From assembly GCA_913055605.1 (NCBI GenBank), contig CAJXKJ010000006.1, positions 1 to 64,000 of the forward strand: a stretch of DNA of 64,000 nt. The letters run 5' to 3'. Shown here piece by piece: positions 25,704-49,705 of this stretch. The stretch is from an uncultured Euryhalocaulis sp. (GTDB lineage: Bacteria; Pseudomonadota; Alphaproteobacteria; Caulobacterales; Maricaulaceae). The stretch's first letter is position 1, and each line of letters opens with the position of its first letter. Both the position numbers and the translations under genes were made by a program. Below the pieces are notes generated by a model. The model was not told the origin of the DNA. It did not search any database and saw only the letters and a program-made list of their open reading frames with translations.

Positions 25704-25717
25704 TCAAAGCGCTTTGA
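25704..25717. repeat. 14-bp perfect palindrome TCAAAGCGCTTTGA overlapping a FixK-type site
   Basis: Direct reading; shares its right end with TTGAGCTGGGTCAA at 25714. Confidence 0.6.
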
Positions 25718-25727
25718 GCTGGGTCAA
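25714..25727. promoter_or_regulatory. FNR/FixK-type box TTGAG-CTGG-GTCAA
   Basis: Exact TTGA-N6-TCAA; 63 bp upstream of the cytochrome c start. Confidence 0.6.
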
Positions 25728-25790
25728 AAGCCGGGGATCGGCCGCCCGCTAGGCTGATTCCCACCGGGGCCGCCGAGGGAGCGTGATACC

Positions 25791-26237
25791 ATGTCCAGAC
25801 TCGCCATTCCGGCCGCCGTTTCGCTCGCGGCCCTGTGCGCGGCCCTCTGTGCGGCATGCGCGCCGGACGGCGCGATGCAAGCAGACGCCGCGGCGCCGGC
25901 CGTGGCCGAAGAGCCGATGATGGGCAGCGAAGAGCGGCTGATCGCGCGGGGACAGTTCATCGCCGAGAATAATTGCGCCGAATGCCACGCCACCGGGACG
26001 ACCGGCGACAGCCCGCGGCCGGACGCGCCGCCTTTGCGCCGGGTGCTGCTGCAATACCAGGCGGAGTCGCTGCGGCTCGATTTCGTGCACGGGCTGCGCG
26101 TCGGCCATCCGGACATGCCGCGCTTCCAGTTCGAGCCGGCGGTGATCGATGCGCTGATCGCCTATCTGATGTCGGTCCAAGACTGGGGCGTGGTGGATGC
26201 GTCCCCGGAACAGGAAACGGAGTCCGCGCCCTCCTGA
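25791..26237 (+). CDS. Small c-type cytochrome (monoheme)
   Basis: 148 aa; signal/lipoprotein-like N-terminus; heme motif NNCAECHATG; distal Met candidate HPDMPRFQFEP. Confidence 0.88.
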   Translation: MSRLAIPAAVSLAALCAALCAACAPDGAMQADAAAPAVAEEPMMGSEERLIARGQFIAENNCAECHATGTTGDSPRPDAPPLRRVLLQYQAESLRLDFVHGLRVGHPDMPRFQFEPAVIDALIAYLMSVQDWGVVDASPEQETESAPS

Positions 26238-26311
26238 CCGGATTGCCGAGCGGCCGGCGCGGTTTTCGCCAGTGCGTTACAGTGCGGCGGGACATCCGCA
26301 CCGGGCGCGCC

Positions 26312-27892
26312 ATGACCGACCGCGACAACCAGCCAGATCAGAGCCGGTCGGACCAAAGCCAGTCGGACCAGAGCGCCGTGATCGCCTTTCTCAGCGATCC
26401 GGCGTCGCATGGCGGTGAAGCGCCGCGCATCATCAAGACCCATGCGGCCGTGCTCTTCGTGGCGGGGAACGACGCCTACAAGCTGAAGCGCGCGGTGCGC
26501 CTGCCCTATCTGGATTTCACGACGCGGGCGGAGCGCGAGCGGGTGTGCCGGCGCGAGATCGAACTCAACCGCCGCACCGCGCCGGACATCTATCTCGGCT
26601 CCATCGCGGTGACCCGCGAGGCGTCGGGCGGGCTCGCTCTGGGCGGCCGCGGCGAGGCGGTGGACTGGGTGGTCCATATGCGCGCGTTCGATCCGGCGGC
26701 GACGCTGGATCACGCGCTGCGGCACGCGCCTCTGTCCGATGACGAGGCGGAGACGCTGGCCAGCGAAATCGCCGCGATGCACGAGGGCGCGGCGATGGCG
26801 CGGGTGAGCGACGGGGCGGAGCGCATCGCGCGCATCGCGCGGCAGAACATCGCGGATTTACGGGAGGCCGCGTCCATCGTCGCCGCATCGGACCTGGACC
26901 GCCTGGACGACGGCGTTTCGCGCATGCTGGAGCGCGTGGGGCCGCTGCTCGATCTGCGGGCGCGGGAGGGACAGGTGCGCCGCTGCCACGGCGATCTGCA
27001 TCTGGGGAACGTCGCGCGCATCGGCGGACGGCCGGTCATTTTCGATGCGCTGGAGTTCGACGAGGAGATGGCGACGATCGACGTGATGTACGATCTCGCC
27101 TTTCTGCTGATGGATTGCTGGCAAAGCGGGCAGCAGGATCTGGCGAACGCGCTGCTCAATCGCTGGATCGCGCTGAGGAGCGAGGATGCGGATCTGGACG
27201 GGCTGGCGGCGCTGCCGCTGTTCCTGTCCATGCGCGCGGCTGTCCGCGCGAAGGTCTGGGCGGTGCGGGCGGAGGAAGCGGCGGGACAGGCCGCCGATGA
27301 GGCGCGGGAGCAGGTGCAGGCCTATCTCGACACCGCGCTGAACATGCTCGCGCCGTCTCCGCCCGTCCTGCTGGCGGTCGGGGGATTTTCCGGCAGCGGC
27401 AAGAGCGTCATCGCCCGGAGCGCCGCGCCACGGATTGCGCCGCCGCCGGGCGCGGTCGTCCTGCGCAGCGACCAGATCCGCAAAGCCCTGGCCGGGGTCG
27501 GCGAGACCGAGCGGATGCCCGAGGCGTCCTATACGCGCGCGGCGTCGGACCGCGTCTATGCGGAGCTGCGGCGCCGCGCCGGGACGATTCTGCGCGCCGG
27601 CCATTCGGTCGTCGCGGACGCGGTGCACGGGCGGGACGAGGAGCGCGATGCGATCGGAGCGACGGCGCGCGCGGCCGGGGCGGCCTTCGCCGGGGTGTGG
27701 ATCACCGCGCCGCCCGGCGTCCTGAAATCCCGGGCCGCGGCGCGCAGCGGCGACGCCTCGGACGCCACACCCGAGATCGTGGAGCGCCAGCTGCGGACGC
27801 TGTCCGAGCCGGCGCGATGGACGCATATCGATAATTCCGGCGCGGTCGAGGACGCCGTGCGGGGCGCCCTCGCCGTGCTCGACGCCGACTAA
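26312..27892 (+). CDS. Bifunctional aminoglycoside-phosphotransferase-like / P-loop kinase protein (Rv2004c-type architecture)
   Basis: APH-like catalytic region CHGDLHLGNVARIGGRPVIFDALEFDEEMATIDVMYDLAFLLMD plus C-terminal GGFSGSGKSVIARSAAP Walker A; start at MTDRDNQ. Confidence 0.85.
   Translation: MTDRDNQPDQSRSDQSQSDQSAVIAFLSDPASHGGEAPRIIKTHAAVLFVAGNDAYKLKRAVRLPYLDFTTRAERERVCRREIELNRRTAPDIYLGSIAVTREASGGLALGGRGEAVDWVVHMRAFDPAATLDHALRHAPLSDDEAETLASEIAAMHEGAAMARVSDGAERIARIARQNIADLREAASIVAASDLDRLDDGVSRMLERVGPLLDLRAREGQVRRCHGDLHLGNVARIGGRPVIFDALEFDEEMATIDVMYDLAFLLMDCWQSGQQDLANALLNRWIALRSEDADLDGLAALPLFLSMRAAVRAKVWAVRAEEAAGQAADEAREQVQAYLDTALNMLAPSPPVLLAVGGFSGSGKSVIARSAAPRIAPPPGAVVLRSDQIRKALAGVGETERMPEASYTRAASDRVYAELRRRAGTILRAGHSVVADAVHGRDEERDAIGATARAAGAAFAGVWITAPPGVLKSRAAARSGDASDATPEIVERQLRTLSEPARWTHIDNSGAVEDAVRGALAVLDAD
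26330..26374 (+). repeat. Three tandem 15-bp units encoding (Q/R)(P/S)DQS
   Basis: CAGCCAGATCAGAGC / CGGTCGGACCAAAGC / CAGTCGGACCAGAGC. Confidence 0.75.
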
Positions 27893-27901
27893 AGCGAGGC
27901 C

Positions 27902-28369
27902 TCAGACTGCGGCGTCCGCCGCCGCTTTGCGCGGACTGGCCGGCTTTTCCGCCGGAGCGTCCGGCTCAGGCGCGGCGCCGGTCATGCCCAGTTCGGAGAC
28001 CGGCTCCATGCTGGCCACGGCGTCCACCGTCTCGGCAGCGGCGTTGGCGCCCATATTGAGCATGCGCGAGGTCTGGTCGGCATAGTCGCGCGCCGCCTCG
28101 CCCAGGAAATCGGCCTGGGCGCGGCAGACGTCGGAGAGCGATCGGCAGCCGGAGATCGCCTTTACGGCCTCCACGTCCTTCTTCATCCGCCCGCTGATGA
28201 AATTGCTGAGCTCCTGCCCCATGCCGAGCGCGCCCTGCAGCATTGCCTGCCCGGCGGTCTGCGCGATCTCGAAATTCTTGCCGGTCATCTCACTCAGCAC
28301 GCCCAGCTGGCTTCCCGGATCGGAAAACCATGCGGCGTATTGCGCATCCGTCTTCGGCGTTTTTGCCAT
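27902..28369 (-). CDS. Phasin family protein (second copy)
   Basis: MAKTPKTDAQYAAWFSDPGSQLGVLSEMTGKNFEIAQTAGQAMLQGALGMGQELSNFISGRMKKDVEAVKAISGCRSLSDVCRAQADFLGEAARDYADQTSRM. Confidence 0.82.
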   Translation of the reverse strand: MAKTPKTDAQYAAWFSDPGSQLGVLSEMTGKNFEIAQTAGQAMLQGALGMGQELSNFISGRMKKDVEAVKAISGCRSLSDVCRAQADFLGEAARDYADQTSRMLNMGANAAAETVDAVASMEPVSELGMTGAAPEPDAPAEKPASPRKAAADAAV

Positions 28370-28424: not shown

Positions 28425-28438
28425 TTGACGGGGATCAA
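28425..28438. promoter_or_regulatory. FNR/FixK-type box TTGAC-GGGG-ATCAA
   Basis: Exact TTGA-N6-TCAA; 55 bp upstream of the minus-strand phasin start. Confidence 0.6.
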
Positions 28439-28465: not shown

Positions 28466-28930
28466 TCAGCCCTCCCCGCCGGCCAGGCGCCGCTCGATCT
28501 CGTCCAGCGGCAGATGCACCAGATCCTTGGTGACCTGCACGGTCTGTCCGGTCTGGCCGGCCGAGGCCGGCATGCGCCGGCGCAGCTCGGCAAGGAATTC
28601 CGGCGGGGCGGTCAGCAGGACGGGCGCGGGGTCCAGAAAGGCGGCGGCCACCTCGGCGGCGAACGCCGCCTCGGCCTCGCGGTGGCGGTCCGTCTGCTCC
28701 ACGGCGCTGCGCTGTCCGCCGGACTGCAGACGCCCGGGGCGGTCCGTCGCCTGATCGCGCGCGGGCGGATTGTCCGGCGCCTCCAGCACCCGCTCGATGC
28801 GCAGGTTCAGGACGTCCGCCTCGCCCTCATTGACCAGGAGCAGCGCCTTGCGCGCATCCGCGACGACGATGCGCGCCGCGTTCGGAATCCGCACCGGCGC
28901 AATCCCGGCTGAATGGCGTGCGTGGCTCAT
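28466..28930 (-). CDS. Host attachment family protein (baeRF/Host_attach-like)
   Basis: ~154 aa from MSHARHSAG; RIVVADARKALLLVNEGEADVLNLRIERVLEAPDNPPARDQATDRPGR...FLAELRRRMPASAGQTGQTVQVTKDLVHLPLDEIERRL. Confidence 0.75.
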   Translation of the reverse strand: MSHARHSAGIAPVRIPNAARIVVADARKALLLVNEGEADVLNLRIERVLEAPDNPPARDQATDRPGRLQSGGQRSAVEQTDRHREAEAAFAAEVAAAFLDPAPVLLTAPPEFLAELRRRMPASAGQTGQTVQVTKDLVHLPLDEIERRLAGGEG

Positions 28931-29060: not shown

Positions 29061-29074
29061 TTGAGGCGGATCAA
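29061..29074. promoter_or_regulatory. FNR/FixK-type box TTGAG-GCGG-ATCAA
   Basis: Exact TTGA-N6-TCAA; 55 bp upstream of the ABC ATPase start, in the divergent intergenic region with the host-attachment gene. Confidence 0.6.
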
Positions 29075-29129: not shown

Positions 29130-29849
29130 ATGGCGACAGCCGACGCGCCGCTGTGTTTCCGGACGCGGCGCCTGACCAAGATCTATGGCGATGGCGCCAC
29201 CGCCGTGCATGCGCTGCGCGGCGTCGATCTGGACCTACCGGAGGGGGAGATGATCGTCCTGCTGGGTCCGTCGGGCAGCGGCAAGTCGACCCTGCTGAAC
29301 ATCCTGGGCGGGCTGGATCACGCCACGTCCGGCGAGTTTCTGTTCCGGGGCCAGGACATGAGCGAGGCGAAGCAGAGCGCGCTGACCCGGTACCGGCGGC
29401 GGCATGTCGGCTTCGTATTCCAGTTCTACAATCTGATGCCGAGCCTGACCGCGCGGGAGAATGTGGCGCTGGTCACCGAGATCGCGGAGGACCCGATGAC
29501 GCCCGAGGAGGCGCTCGCCCTGGTCGGGCTGGAGGCGCGGCTGGACCATTTCCCGGCCCAGCTTTCCGGCGGCGAGCAGCAGCGTGTGGCCATCGCGCGC
29601 GCGGTCGCCAAGCGGCCGGAGGTGCTGCTGTGCGACGAGCCGACCGGCGCGCTGGACAGCGCGACGGGCGTGCGGGTGCTGGAGGCGCTGCAGACGGTCA
29701 ACGACCAGCTGAACTCCACGACGCTGATCATCACCCATAATTCCGGCGTGGCGGACATGGCGCACCGCGTCGTCACGTTTTCGGACGGCCGGATCGGCGA
29801 GGTGCGGCAGAACGCGGAGCGCACGCCGCCGCGGGAGCTGGCCTGGTGA
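29130..29849 (+). CDS. ABC transporter ATP-binding protein (LolD/MacB-type)
   Basis: [59 protein letters not shown]. Confidence 0.95.
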
Positions 29850-32233
29850 GCCGGCGCCGCCTTGTCCTGCTGCGGGCGACCGACCGCAAGCTGCTGCGCG
29901 ATTTGCGCGCGATGTGGCTGCAGGCGCTGGCCATCGCGCTGGTGATCGGCGCGGGCGTGTCGGTCCACCTGCTGGCGGTGGGGATGCTGTCCTCCCTGGA
30001 GCAGACGCGCGACGCCTATTACGAGCGGCACCGCTTCGCCCATGTCTGGGCGCCGGTGGTCCGGGCGCCGGAAAACCTGATGCCCCGCCTGCGCGGGATC
30101 GACGGGGTGCAGGCGGTGGAGACGCGGGTGCGCGCGCCGGCGCTGTTCGACCTGGACGATATGAGCGAGCCGGCGAGCGGCGAGGTCCTGTCCCTGCCCG
30201 ACGGGCGGGAGCCGCATGTGAACCGGCTCTATCTGGCGGAGGGCCACCTGCCGGCGCCCGGCCGGCGGGACGAGGCGGTGCTGCTGGACAGTTTCGCCGC
30301 GGCGCACGGGCTGGAGATCGGCGCGCAGGTGCGCGCCACCATCCGCGGCGGGCGCGAGACGCTGACCGTGGTCGGCCGCGCCTATTCGCCGGAACATGTC
30401 TACGCCATCGCGCCGGGCCAGCTGGTGCCGGACGACCGCCTGTTCGGCGTCGCCTGGATGTCGCGCGAGGCGCTGGGCGAGATGGCCGGCCAGGGCGGCG
30501 CCTTCAACGAAGCCGCGATCCGGCTGATGCGCGGGGTCAGCGAGGACGCGGTCATCGCCGCGCTCGACGCCCTGCTCGCCCCCTATGGCGCGCCCGGCGC
30601 CTATGGCCGCGAAGACCAGCTGTCCGACGCTTTCCTGACGAGCGAGCTGGAGCAGCTGGAAACCATGGGCGCCATCCTGCCCCCGATCTTCCTGGCGGTG
30701 GCGGCGTTTCTGGTGAACGTGGTGGTCGCCCGGCTGATCGCGACGGAGCGCAGCGCCATCGGCCTGATGAAGGCGTTCGGATATTCCGACCGGGCGGTGA
30801 TCCTGCACTATCTGAAATTCGTGGCGGCCATCGCCGCGATCGGCGTGGCCGTCGGCGTTGCCGTCGGGGTGTGGCTGGGGCGCGGCATGGCCGGGCTGTA
30901 TGCCGACTACTACAAATTCCCTTTCCTCGTGTTCCAGGCCGACGCGCGCGACTATCTGCTGGCCATCGGCGTGGCGACGCTCGCGGTGTGCGGCAGCGCG
31001 ATGATCTCGGTCCGCCGCGCGGCGCGGCTGGCCCCGGCCGAGGCGATGACGCCGCCGCCCCCGCCGGACTATTCGCGGGCGCTCGGCTCGCGGATCACCG
31101 CCTGGACGATGCTGGACCAGCAATCGCGCATGATCCTGCGCCAGATCACGCGCTGGCCCGGCCGGGCCGCGTTCACCGCCATCGGCGTGGCGACGTCCGG
31201 CGCGCTGCTGATCGGCACGCTGTTCTTCACCGACTCCATGGAGGTGATGACGGCCTCCTATTTCAATCTGGCGAACCGGTACGACCTCGCCGCCAGCTTC
31301 GTGGAGCCCCGAGGGCGCACCGCCTATTACAGCCTGGCCCAGGCGCCCGGCGTGGTGGCGGCCGAGCCCTATCGCGTGGTGTCCGCCCGCCTGCGCAACG
31401 GCAACCGGGAGGAACGGGCGGCGCTGACCGGCGCGCCGCCGGAAGCGCAACTCTCCCGCCTGCTCGATTCCAGCGGACGCTCCATCACGCCGCCGCCGGG
31501 CGGGCTGGTGCTGTCGCGCGATCTGGCGATCAAGCTGGACATCGCGGCGGGCGAGACGCTGGAGATCGAAATCACCGAGGGAAGGCGGCCGACCGTGCAT
31601 ATCCCGGTGGCGCGCGTGGTCACCACGCTGATCGGATCCGCCGCGACGATGGAGATCGAGGATCTGAACGCGCTGCTGCGCGAGGGGCCGGTCGTGTCCG
31701 GGGTCAACATGATCGTGGATTCCAGCCGGCTGGACGCGCTGTACGCGGACCTGAAGGCGGCGCCGGGGGTGGCGGGCGTCTCGCTGCACCGGCTGGCGGA
31801 GCGCAATTTCCGCGAGCTGATGGACCAGAATATGGGCCGCAACATCCTGATCTATACCGGCTTCGCCGCGGTGATCGCCGCGGGCGTGGTCTATAATAGC
31901 GTGCGCATCTCACTGGCCGAGCGGGAGCGGGAGCTGGCCTCCCTCCGGGTGCTCGGATTCACGCGGGGCGAGGTGTCCTACATCCTGCTGGGCGAGATCG
32001 CGCTGCTGACCGTGGCCGCGCTGCCGGCGGGCGCTCTGGGCGGCGCGGCGCTGGCGAGGTTCCTCGCCTCCGCGATGAGTTCGGACCTGTACCGCCTGCC
32101 TTTTATCATTCGCCCGGGCACGTTCGGGTTCGCCGGAGCGGTGGTGCTGTTCGTCGCGGCGGCGTCGGGCTTGATCGTCCGACGGCGGCTGGACCGGATC
32201 GATATCGTCGCGGTGCTGAAGACGCGCGAATAG
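29846..32233 (+). CDS. ABC transporter permease (two FtsX-type domains)
   Basis: 795 aa; GTG start overlapping the ATPase stop; FtsX-like blocks [31 protein letters not shown] and [35 protein letters not shown]. Confidence 0.92.
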
Positions 32234-32237
32234 GGAC

Positions 32238-33440
32238 ATGATGGTGAAGCTGAATTTCCGCATCGTTTTCTGGACCGCCGTGACGGTGATCGTCGGGGCG
32301 GCGCTGGTCTTTGCCTTCCGCCCCACCCCGCTTCTGGTCGATGTGGCGGAGGTTGCGCGCGGGGGCATGACGGTGAGCGTGCGGGACGAGGTGCGCGCGC
32401 GGGTGCGCGACGTGTTTGTCGTGTCCGCGCCCATTGGCGGTCAGCTGCTGCGCGTCGAGAAGGAGCCGGGAGACCCCGCGCACGCCGGGGAGACGGTGGC
32501 GCGCCTGCTGCCGCCAACCTCCGGCTTTCTGGACGCCCGCTCCCGCGACGAGGCTAACGCCGCGGCGGCGGCGGCCGAAGCGGCGCTGGCCGCAGCGGGC
32601 GACCGGGTGCGTCAGGCGAGCGCGGACTACGACCTCGCCGCCACGGAGGCCGAACGGTTCGAAAGCCTGGCGGAGACTGGCGTGGCGCCGATCGCGACGC
32701 GCGACCGCGCCCGGCGGGATCTGCGCGCGGCGGAGGCCGCGCTGGCCGCGGCGCGGGCCGAAAGCCGCGTGCGGGAGGCCGAACTGGCGGCCGCGCGCGC
32801 CCGGCTGGCCGGCCCGAACGCGGACGGCGGCGGCGCGATCCTGGAGATCGCCGCGCCGGTTTCCGGCAAGGTGCTGCGCGTCACGCAGGAGAGCGAGGCG
32901 GTGGTCGCGCCCGGCGCGCCGATCCTGGAGATCGGAGACCTGGCCGATCTGGAGATCATCGCCGAGCTGCTGTCCAGCGACGCGGCGCGCGTGCAGGACG
33001 GCGCCGATGCGGCGATCGAGAACTGGGGCGGCGAGCCCGATCCGCTGGCCGGCCGGGTGCGCCGGGTGGAGCCGTCGGGCTTCACCAAAATCTCCGCGCT
33101 CGGCGTCGAGGAGCAGCGCGTCAATGTGCTGATCGATCTGGAGGACCCGGCCGCCGCCGCGGAGGCGGGCCTGGGCGACGGCTGGCGCGCGGACGTGGCG
33201 ATCACGCTGTGGCGGGGCGAGGACGTGCTGCAGGCGCCGGTGTCCGCCCTGTTCCGGGACGGCGAGCAGTGGGCGACCTTCCGCGTGGAGAACGGCCGCG
33301 CGCGTCTGCGCCCGGTCCGGATCGGCCGGGACAATGGCGAGGTCGCCGAAGTGCTGGACGGGCTGGAGGCCGGCGACCGGCTGATCCTGTATCCGGGCGA
33401 ACAGGTGGCGGACGGCGTCCGGGTCGCTTCGCGCGATTAG
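32238..33440 (+). CDS. HlyD/MacA-like periplasmic adaptor subunit
   Basis: 400 aa; single N-terminal TM; RVEKEPGDPAHAGETVARL ... VSGKVLRVTQESEAVVAPGAPILEIGDLADLEIIAELLSSDAARV. Confidence 0.9.
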   Translation: MMVKLNFRIVFWTAVTVIVGAALVFAFRPTPLLVDVAEVARGGMTVSVRDEVRARVRDVFVVSAPIGGQLLRVEKEPGDPAHAGETVARLLPPTSGFLDARSRDEANAAAAAAEAALAAAGDRVRQASADYDLAATEAERFESLAETGVAPIATRDRARRDLRAAEAALAAARAESRVREAELAAARARLAGPNADGGGAILEIAAPVSGKVLRVTQESEAVVAPGAPILEIGDLADLEIIAELLSSDAARVQDGADAAIENWGGEPDPLAGRVRRVEPSGFTKISALGVEEQRVNVLIDLEDPAAAAEAGLGDGWRADVAITLWRGEDVLQAPVSALFRDGEQWATFRVENGRARLRPVRIGRDNGEVAEVLDGLEAGDRLILYPGEQVADGVRVASRD

Positions 33441-33561: not shown

Positions 33562-34857
33562 ATGGCGCATATCGTGATTGTCGGAGCGGGAATCGGCGGC
33601 GTTCCCATGGCGCTGGAGATGCGGGGCCGGCTGGGCAAGCCGCACCGGGTCACCATGGTGGCGGACACGCCCACATTCCATTTCACGCCGTCCAACCCCT
33701 GGGTCGCGGTGGGCTGGCGGAAGCCGGCCCAGATCAAGGTCCCCCTCGCCCCGATGCTGAAGCGGCGCGGGATCGAGTTCGTGCAGCAGCGCGTGACCAA
33801 AGTGCTGCCCGATCAGAACCGGCTGGACCTCGCGGACGGGCAGACCCTCGCCTACGACTATCTGGTCATCGCCACCGGCCCGGAACTGGCGTTCGACGAG
33901 ATCGAGGGGCTGGGGCCGCATGGCGGCCACACCCATTCGGTCTGCCATGTCGACCATGCCGACTCCGCCTATGACGGCTGGCTGGAGTTTCTGGACAATC
34001 CCGGCCCGATCGTGGTCGGCGCGGTTCAGGGCGCGTCCTGTTTCGGCCCGGCCTATGAGTTCGCCTTCATCATGGACACCGAGCTGCGGCGGCGGAAGCT
34101 GCGCGACCGGGTCCCGATGACCTTCGTGACGTCCGAGCCCTATATCGGCCATCTGGGCCTGGACGGGGTCGGCGACACGAAAGGGCTTCTGGAAAGCGAG
34201 CTGCGCCAGCGGCACATCTCCTTCATCACCTCGGCCCGGGTCGCCAAGGTCGGCGCCGACGCTATGACGGTGGAGGAAGTGGGCGCCGGCGGCGAAGTGA
34301 CCGCCACGCACGACCTGCCCTTCAGCTACGCGATGATGCTGCCGGCGTTCCGGGGCGTGGAGGCCGTGCGCGGGGTCGAGGGGCTGAGCAATCCGAAGGG
34401 GTTCGTGCTGGTCGACAAGACCCAGCGCAACGCGGCCTACGGCAATATCTTTGCCATCGGCGTGTGCATCGCGATCCCGCCGATGGGCCAGTATCCGGTG
34501 CCGGTCGGCGTGCCGAAGACGGGCTTCATGATCGAATCCATGGTCCGCGCCACGGCGGACAATATCGCCGCCCTGATCGAGGGGCGCGAGGCGACGCACG
34601 AGGCGACTTGGAACGCGGTCTGCCTGGCCGATTTCGGCGACGAGGGCGTGGCCTTCGTAGCCATGCCGCAAATCCCGCCGCGCAACGTGAACTGGGCCAG
34701 CCAGGGCAAATGGGTGCATCTGGCCAAGATCGCGTTCGAGAAATTCTTCCTGAACAAGGTGCGCCGCGGCGTGGCCGAGCCGTTCTATGAGCGCTTGGCG
34801 CTGGACGTCATGGGCGTGACCAAGACGCGCAAGCGCGCCGCGGAAAAGGCCGGCTGA
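33562..34857 (+). CDS. Sulfide:quinone oxidoreductase-family FAD/NAD(P) flavoprotein
   Basis: HIVIVGAGIGGVPMALEMR; YDYLVIATGPEL; GASCFGPAYEFAFIMD and IFAIGVCIAIPP cysteines as in SQR. Confidence 0.85.
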   Translation: MAHIVIVGAGIGGVPMALEMRGRLGKPHRVTMVADTPTFHFTPSNPWVAVGWRKPAQIKVPLAPMLKRRGIEFVQQRVTKVLPDQNRLDLADGQTLAYDYLVIATGPELAFDEIEGLGPHGGHTHSVCHVDHADSAYDGWLEFLDNPGPIVVGAVQGASCFGPAYEFAFIMDTELRRRKLRDRVPMTFVTSEPYIGHLGLDGVGDTKGLLESELRQRHISFITSARVAKVGADAMTVEEVGAGGEVTATHDLPFSYAMMLPAFRGVEAVRGVEGLSNPKGFVLVDKTQRNAAYGNIFAIGVCIAIPPMGQYPVPVGVPKTGFMIESMVRATADNIAALIEGREATHEATWNAVCLADFGDEGVAFVAMPQIPPRNVNWASQGKWVHLAKIAFEKFFLNKVRRGVAEPFYERLALDVMGVTKTRKRAAEKAG

Positions 34858-35341: not shown

Positions 35342-35367
35342 CGTGGTTCCTCCCCTGCCCTTGCGTG

Positions 35368-35571
35368 TCAGCCGAAAGCGCCGCCGCGCGGCGCGCCGAG
35401 CGCGCGATAGATCATCGCCGCCGGGCAGAAACCGGTGAAGCTGGACTGGACGAGATTGGCCCCGACAAAGGCGGCCAGCAGCAGCCACCAGTCCGAGCCG
35501 ATCCAGGCGAAAACCAGAGACACGAGGATCAGGATCCCCGCTGTCAGGGTGACCAGACGTCCTACGGTCAT
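35368..35571 (-). CDS. DUF2892 family small membrane protein
   Basis: 67 aa; GRLVTLTAGILILVS...LVQSSFTGFCPAAMIYRALG. Confidence 0.85.
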   Translation of the reverse strand: MTVGRLVTLTAGILILVSLVFAWIGSDWWLLLAAFVGANLVQSSFTGFCPAAMIYRALGAPRGGAFG

Positions 35572-39859: not shown

Positions 39860-39906
39860 GACGGCCGGACTATACGAGCGCCGCGCGCGGCGGATTTTGC
39901 GATGGC

Positions 39907-40488: not shown

Positions 40489-40499
40489 CGGGGGCGCTC

Positions 40500-40934: not shown

Positions 40935-41382
40935 AGGGCTGGTTCCACAGGTCGCGGTCCAGAAGCCAGTCGCCGTTCTCGTCCAGCTCCCAGATATGGG
41001 CGAAGCGCCCGGCGCCCAGCGGCACGCCGGTGTCGCGGTCCAGCACCTGGTAGTTGCCGTGGACCAGAACCATGTCGATCCCGTCGACCGAATTGGTGAC
41101 GGTCAACACGGTCAGCGGATTGTCGACCTGCATGTCGTCGGCCCAATAGGCGGTGATCTCTTCCCGCCCCTGATAGGTGGGCAGGCCGTGCAGATAGAGG
41201 TGCGCATCCTCGGCATAGAGCGCGCCCAGCGCCTGCTCGTCATGGCTGTTATAGGCGGCGGTCCAGCGGTCCGCGAGCGCCTGGACGGAGCCGTTGGCGT
41301 CCGCGTCGTCCTGCGCCTGCGCCCCGAAGGCCAGCGCCGTCGCGCCCATCGCCGCCAATACCGCCACAGTCTTCAATTTCAT
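40918..41382 (-). CDS. Secreted SnoaL/NTF2-like (DUF4440-type) protein
   Basis: MKLKTVAVLAAMGATALAFGAQAQ signal peptide; ALADRWTAAYNSHDEQALGALYAEDAHLYLHGLPTYQGREEITAYWADDMQ. Confidence 0.85.
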   Translation of the reverse strand: MKLKTVAVLAAMGATALAFGAQAQDDADANGSVQALADRWTAAYNSHDEQALGALYAEDAHLYLHGLPTYQGREEITAYWADDMQVDNPLTVLTVTNSVDGIDMVLVHGNYQVLDRDTGVPLGAGRFAHIWELDENGDWLLDRDLWNQPYGEAP

Positions 41383-41537: not shown

Positions 41538-42005
41538 ATGGCGCGGGAGAGCAGGATGCGCGTGGTCTGTCCCCATTGCGACGCGGTGAACAACGTGCCG
41601 GCCGGACGGCCGGCGCAGGCGGCCAAATGCGGCCGGTGTCACGAAAAACTCTTCACCGGCCGCCCGGCGGCGCTGGACGCGGCGCGCTTCCGCAAACATG
41701 TCGGCGCCAGCGACATTCCCGTCATCGCCGATTTCTGGGCGGCGTGGTGCGGACCGTGCCGGGCGATGGCGCCGATCTTCGAACGCGCCGCGGCGGAGCT
41801 GGAGCCCCGGGCCCGGTTCGTGAAGGTCGATGTGGACGCCAATCAGAGCCTGGCCGCCGAGCTGGGCGTGCAGGGCATTCCGGCCCTCTTCGTGTTCTCC
41901 GGCGGGACCGTCGCGGCGCGCCACGCGGGCGTCGCCGACTCCGCGCTGCTGCGCGACTGGACCCGGCGGTTCGCCGCGAAGGACGCGGCGCCGGAAAAGA
42001 CCTGA
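41538..42005 (+). CDS. trxC: Thioredoxin-2 type (TrxC) with N-terminal Zn-ribbon
   Basis: RVVCPHCDAVNNV...AKCGRCHEKLF; active site WAAWCGPCRAMAP. Confidence 0.93.
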   Translation: MARESRMRVVCPHCDAVNNVPAGRPAQAAKCGRCHEKLFTGRPAALDAARFRKHVGASDIPVIADFWAAWCGPCRAMAPIFERAAAELEPRARFVKVDVDANQSLAAELGVQGIPALFVFSGGTVAARHAGVADSALLRDWTRRFAAKDAAPEKT

Positions 42006-42027: not shown

Positions 42028-42041
42028 TTGATCCGCCTCAA
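42028..42041. promoter_or_regulatory. FNR/FixK-type box TTGAT-CCGC-CTCAA
   Basis: Exact TTGA-N6-TCAA; 62 bp upstream of the flavodoxin GTG start. Confidence 0.6.
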
Positions 42042-42103: not shown

Positions 42104-42661
42104 GTGTCCGACGTATTGGTGCTTTACGCGACGGTCGAGGGGCAGAGCCGCAAGATCGCCGAACATGTCTGCGACCACGCGGTGCGCCAGTGCCGGATGG
42201 CGCGCGTGGCGAACATCACCAACTTGCCGGACGATCTGGACCCCGCGGCCTATGACGCGCTGATCCTGGTCGCGCCGGTCCATATGGGGCGGCACCACCA
42301 GAGCGCGGTGCATTTCATCCGGGACAATGCGGCGCTGCTGCAGAAACATCCCGCCGCGCTCGTGTCGGTGTCGCTGCACGCGGTGGGGCTGGAGCCGGGC
42401 GACGCGGACGAGGCGCGCGAATATGTCGACCAGCTGGCCGGGGAGACGGGCTGGATTCCCGAGGCCGTGCACTACGCCGCCGGGGCGCTGAAATACGCCA
42501 AATACGATTTCTTCAAGCGCTGGATGATGCGGCGCATCGCCAGTGAAAAGGGGTTGTCCGGCGAACCCGGGGACGGCGACGAGATCGAGTTCACCGACTG
42601 GCGCGCGCTGGACGATTTCGTCGACGACTTTCTGCACCGCCATGCGCCGGTGGGCGCCTGA
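42104..42661 (+). CDS. Flavodoxin-domain protein (HemG-like menaquinone-dependent protoporphyrinogen oxidase fold)
   Basis: VLVLYATVEGQSRKIAEHV; ALILVAPVHMGRHHQSAVHFI; KYAKYDFFKRWMMRRIA; GTG start with GGAGGGA upstream. Confidence 0.8.
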   Translation: MSDVLVLYATVEGQSRKIAEHVCDHAVRQCRMARVANITNLPDDLDPAAYDALILVAPVHMGRHHQSAVHFIRDNAALLQKHPAALVSVSLHAVGLEPGDADEAREYVDQLAGETGWIPEAVHYAAGALKYAKYDFFKRWMMRRIASEKGLSGEPGDGDEIEFTDWRALDDFVDDFLHRHAPVGA

Positions 42662-42682: not shown

Positions 42683-43333
42683 TCAGGCCGCCAGCGTGCT
42701 GAGCGCGTCCTCTTTCAGGATGCGCAGGGAGCGGGAATGGGCGATCTCCACCAGGCCGGAGCGCTGCAGATGGCTCAGCATCCGCGACACGGTCTCGATC
42801 GTCAGGCCCAGATAGTCGGCGATGTCCTGGCGCCGCATCGGCAGCTCCCGGATCCCGCGCGCGTTCAGGTCGCACAGGAAGGCCGCCACCCGCTCTTCCG
42901 CCGTCTTGCGGCCGAGCAGCAGGAGGTGGTCCTCCGCCCGCGCCAGCTGGAGAACGATGGCGTTTTCCGGCCCGGCGCACGGTCCGGCCGCGCCGCCCAG
43001 GGTCAGGACGCTGCGCGGATAGGCCTCCACCACAGCATCCGACACCGCCTCCGCCCCGAAGCGGTGGGCGCCGTCGGCGCTGAGGCCGAACCAGTCGCCC
43101 GGGAAATGAAACGCCCCGATCTGGCGGCGGCCGTCGCACAACAGGCGCACGGTGCGCACCGCGCCGGAAAGCACCCGGTACAGGCGCGTGGCCGGCACCT
43201 CCTGCGGGAAAATCTCCTGATCCTGGAGGAAGGAGAGCCGCGCGACCCGCACGCGGCCGTCGCCCTGCCCCAGATCGTTGGAATTGCGGGAAACGGCCCG
43301 CGCGTCGATGGCTGTGTCTGACTGGTTCAGCAT
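42683..43333 (-). CDS. fixK: Crp/Fnr family regulator, FixK-type (lacks FNR N-terminal Cys cluster)
   Basis: cNMP-fold followed by HTH RQDIADYLGLTIETVSRMLSHLQRSGLV; recognition helix E-VSR as in FNR/FixK; adjacent to fixLJ. Confidence 0.85.
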   Translation of the reverse strand: MLNQSDTAIDARAVSRNSNDLGQGDGRVRVARLSFLQDQEIFPQEVPATRLYRVLSGAVRTVRLLCDGRRQIGAFHFPGDWFGLSADGAHRFGAEAVSDAVVEAYPRSVLTLGGAAGPCAGPENAIVLQLARAEDHLLLLGRKTAEERVAAFLCDLNARGIRELPMRRQDIADYLGLTIETVSRMLSHLQRSGLVEIAHSRSLRILKEDALSTLAA

Positions 43334-43404: not shown

Positions 43405-43420
43405 CCTAAGGGAAAATACG
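43405..43420 (-). promoter_or_regulatory. FixJ-type K-box candidate (CGTATTTTCCCTTAGG on minus strand)
   Basis: 72 bp upstream of fixK; resembles rhizobial FixJ sites containing GTAATTTCCCTTA as I recall them. Confidence 0.4.
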
Positions 43421-43423
43421 GAG

Positions 43424-44980
43424 GTGCGCGGCCCGGCCCGTATTGGCCATATGCCGCCAGCAGATAGACTGGCGGTCGTGGACGTACGGGACGGGACAGA
43501 GGGACGGGAAACGCCCCGCTTTGCAGGACTGCGCATCCGCAGGCGGGAGGCGTTGGCCTATGGCCTGACGGCGGCGGCGTTCGCCGGCGCGCTGATTCTG
43601 AGCCTGCATACCGGGGACGCGGCCTATCTGTTCTTCGCGCTGGTCGTTCTGGTCGGTTCGGCGACCGGCGGGGCCGGTCCGGCGGTCCTGGCCGCGCTCG
43701 CCGGCGCCTCGGCGCTCGCCGCCCTGTCCCGGGACACCGGCTGGGACATGGTGCATTTCGCCGGCTTCCTGGCGCTGTCGCTTCTCAGCGGCGTGTGCGG
43801 CGCGGCGAAATACCGCAACCGGCGCACGATGGAGGGCGCGTTACGCGACGTACGCGCACACGAGGCGCATCTGCAGTCCATCCTGAAATCGGTGCCCGAG
43901 GCCATGATCGTGATCGACGAGAAGGGCCTCGTGCGGTCGTTCAGCAGCACGGCCGAACGCATGTTCGGGTACGAAGCCGGCGAGGTGGTCGGCAAGAATG
44001 TCAGCATGCTGATGCCGCCGCCGGAGCATGAGCGCCACAATTCCTATCTGGAGCGATACCGCCGGACCGGGGAGGCCCACATCATCGGCGTGGGGCGGGT
44101 CGTCACCGGCCGGCGCAAGGACGGGTCGACCGTGCCGATCGAACTGGCGGTCGGGGAGATGCGCTCCAACGGCTATCATTTCTTCACCGGCTTCCTGCGC
44201 GACCTGACCGAGCGTCAGGAGACCGAGACGCGGCTGCAGGAGCTGCAGTCGGAGCTGGTGCACATGTCCCGCTTCACCGCGCTGGGCGAGATGAGCTCGG
44301 CGCTGGCGCACGAGCTGAACCAGCCGCTGTCGGCGATCGGCAATTATCTGGGCGGGGCGCGCCTGCGCATGGAGCGCGGCCAGGGCAACGACCCGGCCAC
44401 GATCGAGGCGCTGGGCAAGGCGGCCGAACAGACCCGCCGCGCGGGCGAGATCATCCAGCGCATCCGCGACTTCATCGCGCGCCGGGAGATCGAAAAACGC
44501 TCCGAAAGCGTGTCCAAACTGGTCAACGAGGCCAGCACCCTGGCCCTGATCGGGGCCAAGCCGCTGGGCATTCATGTCCGCCAGGATTTGGCCCCGGAGG
44601 CCCCGACCGTGTTCGCCAGCGGCGTGCAGATCCAGCAGGTTCTGGTGAACCTGATCCGCAACGCCATCGAGGCGCTGGAGGAGTCCGATCCCGGCCGGCG
44701 GGATCTGATGATCAGCACGCGCCGCGCCGAGCATGACACGGTCGAGATCAGCGTCGCCGACACCGGGCCGGGGCTGGCGGAAAACGTTCAGGACCGCCTG
44801 TTCCAGCCTTTCGTCTCGACCAAGGACGCCGGAATGGGCGTGGGCCTGTCGATCTGCCGCACGATTGTCGAGGCGCATGGCGGCGCGATCTGGGCCGAAA
44901 GGAATGAGGCCGGCGGGACGATTTTCCGCTTTACCCTGCCGGCTACCGCCGCTGCGGCGAAGGCGGAGACGGCGACATGA
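43424..44980 (+). CDS. fixL: Oxygen-sensor histidine kinase FixL (heme-PAS)
   Basis: LMPPPEHERHNSYLERYRRTGEAHIIGVGRVVTGRRKDGSTVPIELAVGEM (heme PAS); HisKA ALAHELNQPLSAIGNYL; N-terminal TM region. Start may instead be ATG at 43451. Confidence 0.92.
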   Translation: MRGPARIGHMPPADRLAVVDVRDGTEGRETPRFAGLRIRRREALAYGLTAAAFAGALILSLHTGDAAYLFFALVVLVGSATGGAGPAVLAALAGASALAALSRDTGWDMVHFAGFLALSLLSGVCGAAKYRNRRTMEGALRDVRAHEAHLQSILKSVPEAMIVIDEKGLVRSFSSTAERMFGYEAGEVVGKNVSMLMPPPEHERHNSYLERYRRTGEAHIIGVGRVVTGRRKDGSTVPIELAVGEMRSNGYHFFTGFLRDLTERQETETRLQELQSELVHMSRFTALGEMSSALAHELNQPLSAIGNYLGGARLRMERGQGNDPATIEALGKAAEQTRRAGEIIQRIRDFIARREIEKRSESVSKLVNEASTLALIGAKPLGIHVRQDLAPEAPTVFASGVQIQQVLVNLIRNAIEALEESDPGRRDLMISTRRAEHDTVEISVADTGPGLAENVQDRLFQPFVSTKDAGMGVGLSICRTIVEAHGGAIWAERNEAGGTIFRFTLPATAAAAKAETAT

Positions 44981-45582
44981 CGGACGGCGCCATTGTCTGC
45001 GTCATCGATGACGACGAAGCGGTTCGGGATTCGCTGGACTTCCTGCTGGGCGCCGCCGGCTTCGACGTGCGCCTGCACGCCTCGGCGGAGGATTTCCTGT
45101 CCGACATCCCGGCCGAATGCGGGTGCGTCGTGACGGACGTGCGGATGCCGGGAATGGACGGGGTGACCCTGATCCAGACGCTGAGACAGCGCGGCTGTAC
45201 GGCGCCGGTCATCGTGATGACCGGTCATGGCGATGTGCCGCTGGCCGTCGCGGCGATGAAGGCCGGGGCGGCCGATTTCCTGCAGAAGCCGTACAGCGAC
45301 CAGGCGATCCTGGACACGGTGCGCACGGCGCTCGGCACGGAGACGGTCAATCTGAGCGACGCGCAGAAAGAGGCGCGCGCGCGTCTGGCCCAGCTTTCGG
45401 GGCGGGAGGCGCAGGTTCTGGAGCGGCTGGTGAACGGCGACGCCAACAAGGTGATCGCGCAGGACCTGGGCCTCAGCCCCCGGACGGTGGAGGTCTATCG
45501 CGCCAACGTCATGACCAAGATGCAGGCCGGCAGCTTCGCCGAGCTTGTGCGCCTCGCGGTGTATGGCGGGCTGGAGCCCTAG
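44977..45582 (+). CDS. fixJ: Response regulator FixJ
   Basis: VCVIDDDEAVRDSLDFLL...CVVTDVRMPGMDG...FLQKPYSD; LuxR HTH LSGREAQVLERLVNGDANKVIAQDLGLSPRTVEVYRANVMTKM; ATGA overlap with fixL. Confidence 0.96.
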   Translation: MTDGAIVCVIDDDEAVRDSLDFLLGAAGFDVRLHASAEDFLSDIPAECGCVVTDVRMPGMDGVTLIQTLRQRGCTAPVIVMTGHGDVPLAVAAMKAGAADFLQKPYSDQAILDTVRTALGTETVNLSDAQKEARARLAQLSGREAQVLERLVNGDANKVIAQDLGLSPRTVEVYRANVMTKMQAGSFAELVRLAVYGGLEP

Positions 45583-45593
45583 TCGCCCGCCGC

Positions 45594-45655: not shown

Positions 45656-46081
45656 ATGGACGCGTCAGACACAACGTCCACTGAACCGGATAAGCGATTG
45701 ATCGTGATCGTTGAATCCGACGAGGCGATAAGGAATTCGATGGCGTTTCTTCTGGAGGCTGACGACTACCGGGTGCGGGCCTTCGGCAAGGGAGAGGCGC
45801 TGCTTCTGGACCCGCCGCCGTTTTCCGCCGACGCCTTCGTCATCGGCCATCAGCTCGTCGACATGCCGGGCGCGCGCCTGTTGAAGCAGCTGCGCGACGC
45901 CGGCGCCCGGGCCCCCGCCCTGTTCGTCGCCAGCGCGCCCTCGGCCATGACGCGCCGCGCCGCCGCCGCGCTGGGCGCCGCGATCCTGCAGAAGCCGCTT
46001 CTGGGCAACGCGCTGCGCCAGGCCCTGCAGGGATGCCTCGCCTGCGCGCCGGACAGCGGCGCGGCGGCGCGCCTGCCCTGA
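45656..46081 (+). CDS. fixT: Stand-alone pseudo-receiver domain protein, FixT-like
   Basis: 141 aa; VIVESDEAIRNSMAFLLEADDY ... AFVIGHQLVDMPGARLL (canonical D position occupied by H/G) ... ILQKPL; C-terminal GCLAC; directly after fixJ. Confidence 0.7.
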   Translation: MDASDTTSTEPDKRLIVIVESDEAIRNSMAFLLEADDYRVRAFGKGEALLLDPPPFSADAFVIGHQLVDMPGARLLKQLRDAGARAPALFVASAPSAMTRRAAAALGAAILQKPLLGNALRQALQGCLACAPDSGAAARLP

Positions 46082-46110: not shown

Positions 46111-48639
46111 ATGGACCAGACCCAAGCGCGGCCTTCGCCCGCCCCGCCCGCCCCCGCCGCGCCGAACGAGGGACTGACCGAGGCGGAGGCGGAAGCGCGG
46201 CTGAGCGCGGACGGGCCGAACGAATTGCCGTCCCAGGCGCGGTTCAACTGGACCGAACGGCTGCTCGGCCCGTTCCGGGAGCCGGCCTATCAGCTGCTCG
46301 TCGCCGCCGGCGCGGTCTATCTGGCGCTCGGCGACCGGCTGGAGGGCGCGCTGCTGTTCGCCGCGGCGGTGCTGGCCGTCGGCATCGCCATTGTCCAGGA
46401 CTACCGGACCGAGCGCACGCTGATCCGGCTGCGCGATCTGGCCAGCCCGCGCGCGCTGGTCCGCCGCGGCGGCGCGACGCGGCGCATTCCGGCGCGGGAG
46501 CTTGTGACCGGCGACATCGTCCTGCTGGAGGACGGCGACCGCGCCCCGGCGGACGGCGTTTTGCTGGCCGCCACGGGACTGGCCGCCGATGAATCCCTGA
46601 TGACCGGGGAGTCCGCGCCGGTGGACAAGGCGGCCGCGCCCGCCCCCGATGCGGAGAGCGAGCCGGACCCGCTGGGCTTCGTGCTCGGCGGTTCGGTGAT
46701 CGTCCGCGGCGAAGGGGTGATGCGCGTCACCGCGACGGGGCCGCGCTCCCGGCTCGGCCAGATCGGCGTGGCCATCGCGGGATCGCCGTTCGAACCGCCG
46801 CGGCTGACCGTGCATCTGCGCCGGCTGGTGCGGCTGTTCGCCGTCGCGGCGGTGGGGGCCAGCCTTCTGCTGTTCGCCGGTCAGGGTCTGGCGACCGGGG
46901 AATGGATGGGCGCCCTGCTGCTGTCGCTGGCGCTGGCCATATCGCTGGTGCCCGAGGAAATCCCGCTGGTCATCGCCGTGTTCACGGTGATCGGGGCGCT
47001 GCGCATCGCGCGCGCGGGCGTACTGGCGCGTCAGGCCGCCGCGATCGAGACGCTGGGGGAGACCACGGTCCTGTGCCTGGACAAGACCGGCACGCTGACG
47101 CGCAACCGTATGGAAGTGTCGGCGGTGTGGACGCCGGCGGACGGGCTGGCCCCCGCCGATGGACCGGGCGGCGACGGGGGCGGCGCCCTGCGCGCGGCCG
47201 CCGCCGCGTGCTCCCCCAATCCGCGCGACCCGATGGAGCTGGCGATCCTGCGCGCCGCGCCGCAGGCCGGGGACGGCCAGTGCATCGTCCAGTCCTGGCC
47301 GTTCGAGCGCGCGTTGATGGCGATGGCCAATCTCTGCCGCGCGGATGACGGCGGCGAAACCCTGTTCCTGAAGGGCGCGCCGGAAGCCGTCATCCCCTGG
47401 GCCGAAACCGCGCCCGGCCGCCGCGCGGAGGCCGAGCGCGCCGCCGCGGACATGGCCGCGCGGGGAATGCGCGTGATCGCCGTCGCGGAAGGCCTGCCGC
47501 CGCAGGGTTCGCTGCGCGATGCGCCCTTGCGGCTGACCGGGCTGGTCGGCCTGGCCGATCCGCTGCGCCCCGAAGCGCCGGAGCTGATCGCCCAATGCGC
47601 CGCCGCCGGAATCCGGGTGATGATGATGACCGGCGACCATCCCGCCACGGCGATGGCGATCGCGCGCGAAGCCGGAATCGCGGACGGCGGCGCGGTCGTG
47701 GACGGCCCCGCCCTGGCCGCCATGAACGAAGGGCAACGGACCGAGGCCTGCGCCCGGGCGGCGGTCTTCGCGCGCGTCGTGCCGGAGCAGAAGCTGATCA
47801 TCGTGAACGCCCTGCGGGAGGCCGGGGAGATCGTCGCCATGACCGGCGACGGGGTGAACGACGCGCCCGCCCTGAAGGCCGCCCATATCGGCGTGGCGAT
47901 GGGCGACCGGGGCTCCGACGTGGCGCGCGAGGCCGCGGCGCTGGTCCTGGTGCACGACGACCTGGCCTCGCTGGTGAAGGCGTTCCGCCTCGGCCGCCGG
48001 ATTTCCGACAATGTCCGCAAGGCGCTGGCCTATATCTTCTCCATCCATGTGATGATCGCGGGGACGGCGCTGGCGCCGCTGCTGTTCGGCATGCCGCCGA
48101 TCCTGCTGCCGCTGCATGTGGTCATCCTGGAATTCGCCATCGACCCGGTGTGCGCGATCGTGCTGGAGGCCGACAAGCCGCAGCGCGGCGTAATGCGCCG
48201 CCCGCCGCGCCGGCCGGACCAGCCGCTGTTCGGCGTGCGGGACATCGCGGTCAATCTGACATTGGGACTCGTCGCGCTGGCCGGCGTGCTGGCCGCTTAT
48301 GTCTGGACCATGCGGACGGGGGACGCCGATACGGCGCGGGCGACCGCCTTCCTGACCATCATGGCGCTGAACGCCGCGCTGATCCTGGTCACGCGCGCCC
48401 AGGGCGGGCGCCTGGGCGCGATCCTGCGCACGCATAATCCGCTGCTGTGGCCCGCGGTGGTCCTGATCTTTGGGGCGGGCGTATTGGCGACCCATCTGGG
48501 ACCCGTCGCTGCGGTGCTGGATTTCGCGCCGCCCCGGATCGCCGTCTCGGCCGCCTGCGCCGCGGCGGCGCTGGCTCTGGCGCTGAGTCTGGAGGCGGCC
48601 TCCCGGCTACTGTTCCGGGCGCGCCGGCGCGCGGCGTGA
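46111..48639 (+). CDS. Cation-translocating P2-type ATPase (ion unknown)
   Basis: 843 aa; SLVPEEIPLVIAVFTVIGALR; LCLDKTGTLTRNRM; MTGDGVNDAPALKAAHIGVAMGDRGSDVAREAA. Confidence 0.95.
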   Translation: MDQTQARPSPAPPAPAAPNEGLTEAEAEARLSADGPNELPSQARFNWTERLLGPFREPAYQLLVAAGAVYLALGDRLEGALLFAAAVLAVGIAIVQDYRTERTLIRLRDLASPRALVRRGGATRRIPARELVTGDIVLLEDGDRAPADGVLLAATGLAADESLMTGESAPVDKAAAPAPDAESEPDPLGFVLGGSVIVRGEGVMRVTATGPRSRLGQIGVAIAGSPFEPPRLTVHLRRLVRLFAVAAVGASLLLFAGQGLATGEWMGALLLSLALAISLVPEEIPLVIAVFTVIGALRIARAGVLARQAAAIETLGETTVLCLDKTGTLTRNRMEVSAVWTPADGLAPADGPGGDGGGALRAAAAACSPNPRDPMELAILRAAPQAGDGQCIVQSWPFERALMAMANLCRADDGGETLFLKGAPEAVIPWAETAPGRRAEAERAAADMAARGMRVIAVAEGLPPQGSLRDAPLRLTGLVGLADPLRPEAPELIAQCAAAGIRVMMMTGDHPATAMAIAREAGIADGGAVVDGPALAAMNEGQRTEACARAAVFARVVPEQKLIIVNALREAGEIVAMTGDGVNDAPALKAAHIGVAMGDRGSDVAREAAALVLVHDDLASLVKAFRLGRRISDNVRKALAYIFSIHVMIAGTALAPLLFGMPPILLPLHVVILEFAIDPVCAIVLEADKPQRGVMRRPPRRPDQPLFGVRDIAVNLTLGLVALAGVLAAYVWTMRTGDADTARATAFLTIMALNAALILVTRAQGGRLGAILRTHNPLLWPAVVLIFGAGVLATHLGPVAAVLDFAPPRIAVSAACAAAALALALSLEAASRLLFRARRRAA

Positions 48640-48649
48640 TCCTGATCAA
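48636..48649. promoter_or_regulatory. FNR/FixK-like box GTGAT-CCTG-ATCAA (one mismatch)
   Basis: 54 bp upstream of the Pta-like start at 48704; overlaps the ATPase stop codon. Confidence 0.5.
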
Positions 48650-48703
48650 AGGCGCGGCGCCGCCGCTGGGGAATTCTGTTTCGCGGACATGCGGGATTGC
48701 GCA

Positions 48704-49705
48704 ATGACGGACGAGCACAGACCCCAGGACACCACCGCGCTGATCGCGGCCGCCGCGCCCGGCGTCGGGGAGCCGCGCAGCTGGGAAAAAGGCCTGCGCC
48801 TGGCGGCGCTGGTGGAGCGTGCCCAGACGCGCAACCCTCTGCGCACCGCGATCGTGCATCCGGTCGACCCGCTGTCGCTGCGCGGCGCGATGGTGGCGGC
48901 CGAGGCGCGTCTCATCTCCCCGCTTCTGATCGGCCCGCGCGGGAAGATCGAGGCGGCGGCCGAAGCCTGCGGAATCAATCTGCGCGGACACGACATTGTC
49001 GATGTCCCGCACAGCCACGCCGCCGCCGATTGCGCCGCCGCGCTGGCGCATGAAGGCCGCGCCGCGGCGGTGATGAAAGGCGCCCTGCACACCGACGAAT
49101 TGCTGCACGCCCTGTTCTGTCCGGAGTCCGGCCTGCGCACCGACCGCCGCGCCAGCCATGTCTTCGTCGTGGATGCGCCGGCCTATCACAAGCTGCTTCT
49201 GGTGACGGACGCGGCGGTGAACATCCGCCCCGACCTGCAACAGAAGGCCGACATCGTGCAGAACGCGATCGACCTGGCGCGCGCCATCGGGGTAGAGCGG
49301 CCAAAGGCCGCCATCCTGTCCGCTGTGGAGACGGTGAACCCGCGCATGACCGCGACGCTGGACGCCGCAGCCCTGTGCAAGATGGCGGAGCGCGAGCAGA
49401 TTCGCGGCGGCGTTCTGGATGGTCCGCTGGCCTTCGACAACGCCATTTCGGCCGAGGCGGCGCGCGCCAAGGGGCTGGTCTCCGCCGTCGCGGGCGACGC
49501 CGACATCCTGGTCGCGCCGGATATCGAGGTCGGCAACATCCTGGCCAAGCAGATGGACTATCTGGGCGGGGCCATCGCGGCGGGCTTGCTGACCGGCCTG
49601 CATGTGCCGGTGATGCTGACCAGCCGCGCCGACGGCGACGCCGCGCGCATGGCGTCCTGCGCGCTGGCGCATTTTTACGCCGCGCCGCCCGGTCCGCCGG
49701 CATGA
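48704..49705 (+). CDS. Phosphate acetyl/butyryltransferase family protein
   Basis: AEARLISPLLIGPRGKIEAAAEACGI...HEGRAAAVMKGALHTDELLHAL...DILVAPDIEVGNILAKQMDYLGGAIAAGLLTGLHVPVMLTSRAD. Confidence 0.93.
   Translation: MTDEHRPQDTTALIAAAAPGVGEPRSWEKGLRLAALVERAQTRNPLRTAIVHPVDPLSLRGAMVAAEARLISPLLIGPRGKIEAAAEACGINLRGHDIVDVPHSHAAADCAAALAHEGRAAAVMKGALHTDELLHALFCPESGLRTDRRASHVFVVDAPAYHKLLLVTDAAVNIRPDLQQKADIVQNAIDLARAIGVERPKAAILSAVETVNPRMTATLDAAALCKMAEREQIRGGVLDGPLAFDNAISAEAARAKGLVSAVAGDADILVAPDIEVGNILAKQMDYLGGAIAAGLLTGLHVPVMLTSRADGDAARMASCALAHFYAAPPGPPA

Follow-up and report, generated by a model that had tools for sequence, protein, structure and literature searches.

The FixLJ-FixK-FixT regulon of Caulobacterales, Caulobacter crescentus included (PMC4999443, PMC7078487, PMC3751524), has been reconstructed as 70 genes in 21 operons, with cco, cyd, hemN, cta, fixLJ and fixK named among them (PMC4999443), and in C. 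crescentus the targets are found chromosome-wide (fixK CC0752, cydA CC0762, ccoN CC1401, CC2115 and CC0277). We analyzed a 64,000-nucleotide stretch of contig CAJXKJ010000006.1 from an uncultured Euryhalocaulis sp. (hereafter the window), in which positions 25714-50829 (the island) very probably constitute a compact FixLJ-FixK regulon, the action of FixK at its operators being predicted (Table 1). Common to the island and the Caulobacterales regulon are FixL, FixJ, FixK and a FixT-like protein, a FixJ-type box before fixK, TTGA-N6-TCAA operators, redox cargo and the enrichment of sites around fixK. The island is a variant of this known regulon, and its novelty lies in compactness and unusual contents, not in a new kind of system. 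Unlike in C. crescentus, no ccoN was found in its genome, and a single 23-kb block holds nearly all of the good intergenic sites. The cargo extends beyond the genes named for Caulobacterales with a sulfide:quinone reductase (SQR)-RND module, an ABC exporter, a P-type ATPase (P-ATPase), a phasin and phosphate acetyltransferase-acetate kinase (pta-ack). The FixT-like protein, unlike Caulobacterales FixT, lacks a four-cysteine motif and has only CLAC near its end.

Two further systems invite comparison. The FixK2 regulon of Bradyrhizobium diazoefficiens shares with the window a FixK2-type regulator and a box that includes one-mismatch forms, and counts acetate/propionate kinase among its targets, as compared with pta-ack here; its targets, fixNOQP among them, are distributed genome-wide, whereas those predicted in the window are packed in one block (PMC9104804). 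The lxa locus of Burkholderia cenocepacia is, like the island, a contiguous stress and electron-transfer block, raised at low oxygen, and FixLJ-controlled FixK has been suggested as its regulator (PMC6127331). The lxa locus is rich in universal stress proteins, and its FixLJ (BCAL2210/2211) and FixK (BCAM0049) are encoded elsewhere, whereas in the window the regulators lie inside the block.

All eight palindromes that a first-pass annotation of the window had picked out as FixK/FNR-type operators were recovered at their positions, four as exact TTGA-N6-TCAA and four with one mismatch, and every 14-mer lies between genes or at the end of one. The gap from the 14-mer to the start codon is 63 bp for the cytochrome c gene, 55 bp for both the phasin and ABC ATPase genes, 71 bp for SQR, 66 bp for trxC, 75 bp for the SnoaL/RND unit, 62 bp for flavodoxin and 48 bp for FixT (ATG at 45656). 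For pta it is 39 bp to the first ATG or 54 bp to the second; the annotated range of 48-75 bp is correct for a pta start at the second ATG and otherwise widens to 39-75 bp. The consensus of the island agrees with published FixK boxes (PMC3050613, PMC4999443).

Pattern searches of the whole genome (3.159 Mb, 98 contigs) revealed 10 exact TTGA-N6-TCAA sites, five of them in the window and four of these intergenic in the island. Under random placement, the probability of five of the ten exact sites falling within 23.4 kb is ~1e-5, and that of four within 16.4 kb is 1.4e-4. The stricter pattern TGA-N5-R-TCAAA occurs at 16 places in the genome, seven in the window and six of these in the island, while a spacing control with one extra N (TTGN8TCAAA) gave 10 genome matches, none of them in the window. 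With up to one mismatch allowed, the window contains 14 matches versus 5.9 expected, and none of 100 shuffles reached as many. An exact palindrome at 18723-18736 lies inside an O-antigen-ligase coding sequence, is without promoter features and is best read as a chance match; one-mismatch decoys, also in or at genes, occur at 39897 and 41093. Outside the window, 24 matches were examined, of which 19 fall inside called reading frames, two of them (L208 and L211) near a called start. On inspection by eye, none of the five intergenic matches clearly combines the 3' A with the correctly spaced -10 hexamer described below; the best candidate for a weak additional site is a one-mismatch match on contig C36 (L209). 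The one perfect consensus elsewhere, TTGATCTGGATCAA on contig C37, was rejected as an outside operator, being inside carD.

Read towards the gene, the base directly 3' of TCAA is A at all eight sites, and each is followed 20-23 bp after the 14-mer by a -10-like hexamer (TAGGCT, TAATCT, AGAATG, TAGGAT, CATCTA, TATCCT, CAATCT and GAATTC). At this spacing the summed match to TATAAT is 27; other spacings gave 5-21, and upstream regions elsewhere in the window gave 15.8 +/- 2.6 (P = 5e-5). With a -10 element at 20-23 bp, the operator would sit near -41.5, as has been described for class II FNR/FixK promoters (PMC7713065); another FixK box has been reported at -44.5 (PMC3050613). Judged by the predicted -10 spacing, all eight sites have the putative layout of class II FNR/FixK promoters.

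The same arrangement recurs in relatives. Across 80 FixK-centred related loci (named records, mostly Caulobacteraceae; 1.35 Mb), 174 exact sites were counted, while the controls gave 2 (reversed), 1 (N7) and 5 (N5). A+T content after the sites peaks at +23/24 and +27/28, as in the window. Half of the 16 exact sites in the genome G376 lie within 22 kb beside FixK (P = 2e-13), and G705 has 11 exact sites in 39 kb beside FixK. The same-family genomes G091 and G630 carry six sites each in 25 kb near FixK, representing 6 of 8 and 6 of 7, respectively, of their genome totals for TTGAY-N4-RTCAA; elsewhere in the order the sites are more scattered, as in G624, with three near FixK and 36 genome-wide for this pattern. 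Both checks suggested by the first-pass annotation thus came out in its favor: enrichment of sites in the block over the genome, by exact and stricter patterns and by random placement, and conservation in related loci, by the 80 FixK loci and by sites upstream of SQR. The base after TCAA, always A in the window, is mostly G in the G376 and G705 loci (L137, L138, L242 and L243), and the flank of the FixK box seems to be lineage-specific.

Alignment and profile matches confirmed that the window encodes a FixK-type protein with an ETVSR helix and has fixLJ beside it. FixL aligns through its heme PAS domain with FixL structures, with the segments RHNSY and HIIGVGR kept. In B. japonicum FixL, the RH-SY and HIIG-GR segments are established to hold the heme ligand and the O2 contact. 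FixJ scores 282.7 bits against its NCBIfam model (cut-off 255). FixK has the recognition helix I-E-T-V-S-R and no N-terminal FNR cysteine cluster, residues 1-80 of its open reading frame containing no Cys; it is the effector of FixLJ, not an O2 sensor. The window FixK has Arg at the position of the redox-sensitive C183 of B. diazoefficiens FixK2 and therefore probably lacks this oxidative control; the FixK2 structure 4i2o itself carries C183S (PMC9104804). Two FixK genes lie about 22 kb apart on one contig of Phenylobacterium sp. Root700 (L074 and L085), and a second FixK gene is also present in several other genomes of the order.

The pattern CCTCCGTA-N6-CTTAGG has 18 matches in 2.36 Mb of related loci, all 18 of them upstream of fixK, the region from which the Caulobacterales FixJ box was itself derived (PMC4999443). 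No FixK box was found at fixK or fixLJ in the window. Because a FixJ-type box stands upstream of fixK, FixJ is predicted most likely to control fixK, and FixK the rest.

Much of the window cargo is found beside FixLJK in two other genomes of the order and in a Brevundimonas metagenome-assembled genome. The G376 locus contains a P-ATPase, SQR (68% identity), MFP, RND (63%), DUF302, PNPOx and cytochrome c, and the Brevundimonas locus L070 contains SQR, RND, MFP, P-ATPase and cytochrome c. In G705, SQR (68%), RND (64%), DUF302 and the ABC exporter (ATPase 76%, permease 62%, HlyD 55%) adjoin FixK, and further genes at sites encode Hsp20, Usp-fold, acetyl-CoA hydrolase-like, alcohol dehydrogenase-like and flavodoxin-fold proteins, which is a low-oxygen/stress set.

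The gene first annotated as SQR-like encodes a genuine SQR by sequence, with 505 bits to Acidithiobacillus ferrooxidans SQR and the three catalytic cysteine positions kept; the RND operon, annotated with seven genes, proved to hold six. In all four FixK-linked SQR genes an operator precedes the start by 67-71 bp; it has one mismatch in the window and is exact, at 67-68 bp, in the three relatives. Where no FixK neighbor was detected, only one of 16 SQR loci has an exact site. On alphaproteobacterial plasmids (L159, L160, L161 and L162), SQR-MFP-RND recurs with ArsR-type and rhodanese-type genes. This plasmid module, with a SqrR/BigR-like ArsR/SmtB regulator, has SQR 63-68% and RND 60-67% identical to the window's and usually no FixK box; in the window, unlike on the plasmids, neither an ArsR- nor a rhodanese-type gene was seen beside SQR-RND, and a FixK box precedes SQR. 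Because the plasmid pair travels with an ArsR-type regulator, it is reasonable to infer that the module may have switched from sulfide-type (ArsR) to oxygen-type (FixK) control. A literature search for FixK together with sulfide:quinone reductase found nothing relevant. Cyanobacterial plasmids and an Aeromonas record also carry SQRs of the same type.

Because the sites, the cargo of relatives, the FixJ-type box and the heme-PAS residues of FixL agree, a single regulon is a well-supported prediction, under which expression of the island operons would depend on FixK and O2. The single, self-regulated O2-responsive regulon of the first-pass annotation was thereby strengthened by enrichment, conservation and promoter spacing, the last a check beyond those it had suggested, and was amended in that FixL, not FixK, senses O2. 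Several observations weigh on the other side. Four of the eight sites carry a half-site mismatch, and 344 places in the genome match at up to one mismatch, so that any single one-mismatch site could be due to chance. The -10 hexamers are degenerate. The NCBIfam models for FixK (TransRegFixKCaul, E 2.7e-53) and FixT (29.4 bits, cut-off 150) match under cut-off, the FixT-like protein fitting in position and size. No ccoN was detected in the genome by TIGR00780, cyd and other terminal oxidases not having been searched, and the classic FixK output is absent in that no ccoN was found.

The mismatched half-sites would accord with a smaller regulon, in which FixK controls only the operons with exact sites (cytochrome c/kinase, phasin, ABC exporter and flavodoxin) and the remainder are neighbors. 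We consider this improbable, since the 3' A and the -10 spacing are present at each of the four mismatched sites, SQR orthologues adjoining FixK have an exact site in the corresponding position, and in B. diazoefficiens similar one-mismatch boxes, TTGATCCAGCGCAA and ATGATCTGGGTCAA among them, stand before FixK2-dependent units (PMC9104804). It is much less likely still that the sites are real and bound mainly by another Crp/Fnr protein, responding to a stimulus other than FixLJ-sensed oxygen: the genome encodes two more HTH_Crp_2 proteins over cut-off, but their helices, VHVSR and VHTNR, are without the Glu of E-xx-SR, which among such proteins only the local FixK has, and the sites concentrate at the fixK locus in the window's and related genomes. 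Hardly credible is an origin by chance, with random matches to a degenerate 8-letter consensus beside unrelated genes, for which the 344 genome matches and the three further window matches in or at coding sequence speak. Evidence against chance comes from the clustering relative to the genome itself, the intergenic placement, the -10 spacing, the large enrichment over negative controls in the 80 related loci and the constant operator distance upstream of SQR in FixK-linked relatives.

For the single regulon, we propose a pathway in which low oxygen would release O2 from the heme-PAS domain of FixL, followed by phosphorylation of FixJ; FixJ~P would then bind its box at 43405-43424 and turn on fixK. 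FixK would bind the eight operators, centred ~41 bp upstream of the transcription starts, and recruit RNA polymerase as a class II activator. Its targets would comprise the electron-transfer and redox proteins cytochrome c, SQR, flavodoxin and TrxC, together with the ABC and RND efflux systems, the P-ATPase, phasin and pta-ack. FixT, itself a FixK target, would feed back on FixL. In this scheme we infer binding, direction of regulation, O2 response and FixT feedback from sequence.

FixK is patchy in the family, with three same-family genomes at E <= 1e-25 among those sampled, the window's included, and the FixK of a same-genus genome (G003) is only distantly related. In a tree of FixL, FixJ and FixK, the window falls outside the main Caulobacteraceae group (100/99), its exact place not being fixed by the tree, and one clade of the window with two same-family genomes is not rejected (approximately unbiased test, p 0.11). 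Acquisition of the island by transfer is possible, as is a history of loss. The island begins with FixK box 1, 31 bp past the tRNA-Ser gene. A mobile genomic island excising at tRNA-Ser was considered and dropped: the window contains no second copy of the tRNA-Ser 3' end, the island is like its surroundings in G+C content, with no shift, and no integrase was found among the window proteins scanned. A claim of mobility is not made because of the missing second tRNA end and G+C shift.

Table 1 Genes and predicted regulatory sites of the island, in window coordinates.
Feature	Position	Strand	Remarks
tRNA-Ser(GCT)	25594..25683	+	ARAGORN; exact left edge of island, polysaccharide cluster on its other side
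FixK box 1 TTGAGCTGGGTCAA	25714..25727	+	exact; cytochrome c/kinase unit; TAGGCT 22 bp downstream
c-type cytochrome	25791..26237	+	Pfam Cytochrom_C E 1.9e-7
APH + AAA_33 kinase fusion	25973..27892 (listed open reading frame; true start probably further in)	+	Pfam
phasin	27902..28369	-	Pfam Phasin_2 E 1e-10
FixK box 2	28425..28438	-	exact; faces phasin
baeRF12/Host_attach family protein	28466..28930	-	Pfam; without own operator
FixK box 3	29061..29074	+	exact; ABC exporter
ABC ATPase, FtsX-type permease, HlyD adaptor	29130..33440	+	Pfam; relatives adjoin FixK in G705
FixK box 4 ATGACACGGATCAA	33477..33490	+	one mismatch; SQR
SQR	33562..34857	+	A. ferrooxidans SQR E 1.5e-150
six-gene unit SnoaL, DUF302, nitroreductase, MFP, RND, PNPOx	34871..41382	-	Pfam
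FixK box 5 TTGCGCCAGATCAA	41458..41471	.	one mismatch; between RND unit and divergent trxC
thioredoxin 2 (TrxC)	41538..42005	+	Pfam
FixK box 6	42028..42041	+	exact; flavodoxin
flavodoxin / HemG-like	42104..42661	+	Flavodoxin_5; PRK11104 under cut-off
FixK	42683..43333 (ATG at 43333; open reading frame open to 43405)	-	PDB 4i2o FixK2 E 3.9e-44
FixJ-type box CCTCCGTA-N6-CTTAGG	43405..43424	-	upstream of fixK
FixL heme-PAS histidine kinase	43424..44980 (listed open reading frame; in-frame ATG ~43451)	+	
FixJ	44977..45582	+	NCBIfam PRK09390 FixJ
FixK box 7 TTGCGCTGCATCAA	45594..45607	+	one mismatch; fixT/P-ATPase
FixT-like lone receiver	45656..46081	+	NCBIfam FixT E 6e-7, under cut-off
P-type cation ATPase	46111..48639	+	Pfam
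FixK box 8 GTGATCCTGATCAA	48636..48649	+	one mismatch; pta-ack
pta-ack	48689..50829	+	Pfam

Elsewhere in the window, positions 52897-58710 (-) encode a hybrid histidine kinase of 1937 residues that combines 9-10 HAMP repeats with GAF and two receiver domains, adjoined by another hybrid kinase at 50833-52893, and positions 12050-13912 (+) encode a cyclic-nucleotide-binding domain fused to a patatin-like phospholipase.

As a tentative and rather doubtful extension, sensor, transducer, regulator and a near-complete operator set may be packed as a unit that is gained and lost together; similar blocks would have arisen repeatedly in the order, recruiting SQR-RND, the ABC exporter and the P-ATPase under different FixLJK lineages, with SQR-RND passing from ArsR to FixK control. 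The island presents a clear case of a global-type regulator, FixK, that shrank to, or stayed as, a local regulon with its operators alongside, and having regulator and operators side by side makes the movement and growth of a regulon testable. For Caulobacterales, it predicts FixK/O2 control of SQR, the RND pump, the ABC exporter and pta-ack, which the comparative reconstruction did not name as targets (PMC4999443); it also predicts that the SQR-RND module has been rewired, oxygen-type control replacing the sulfide type.

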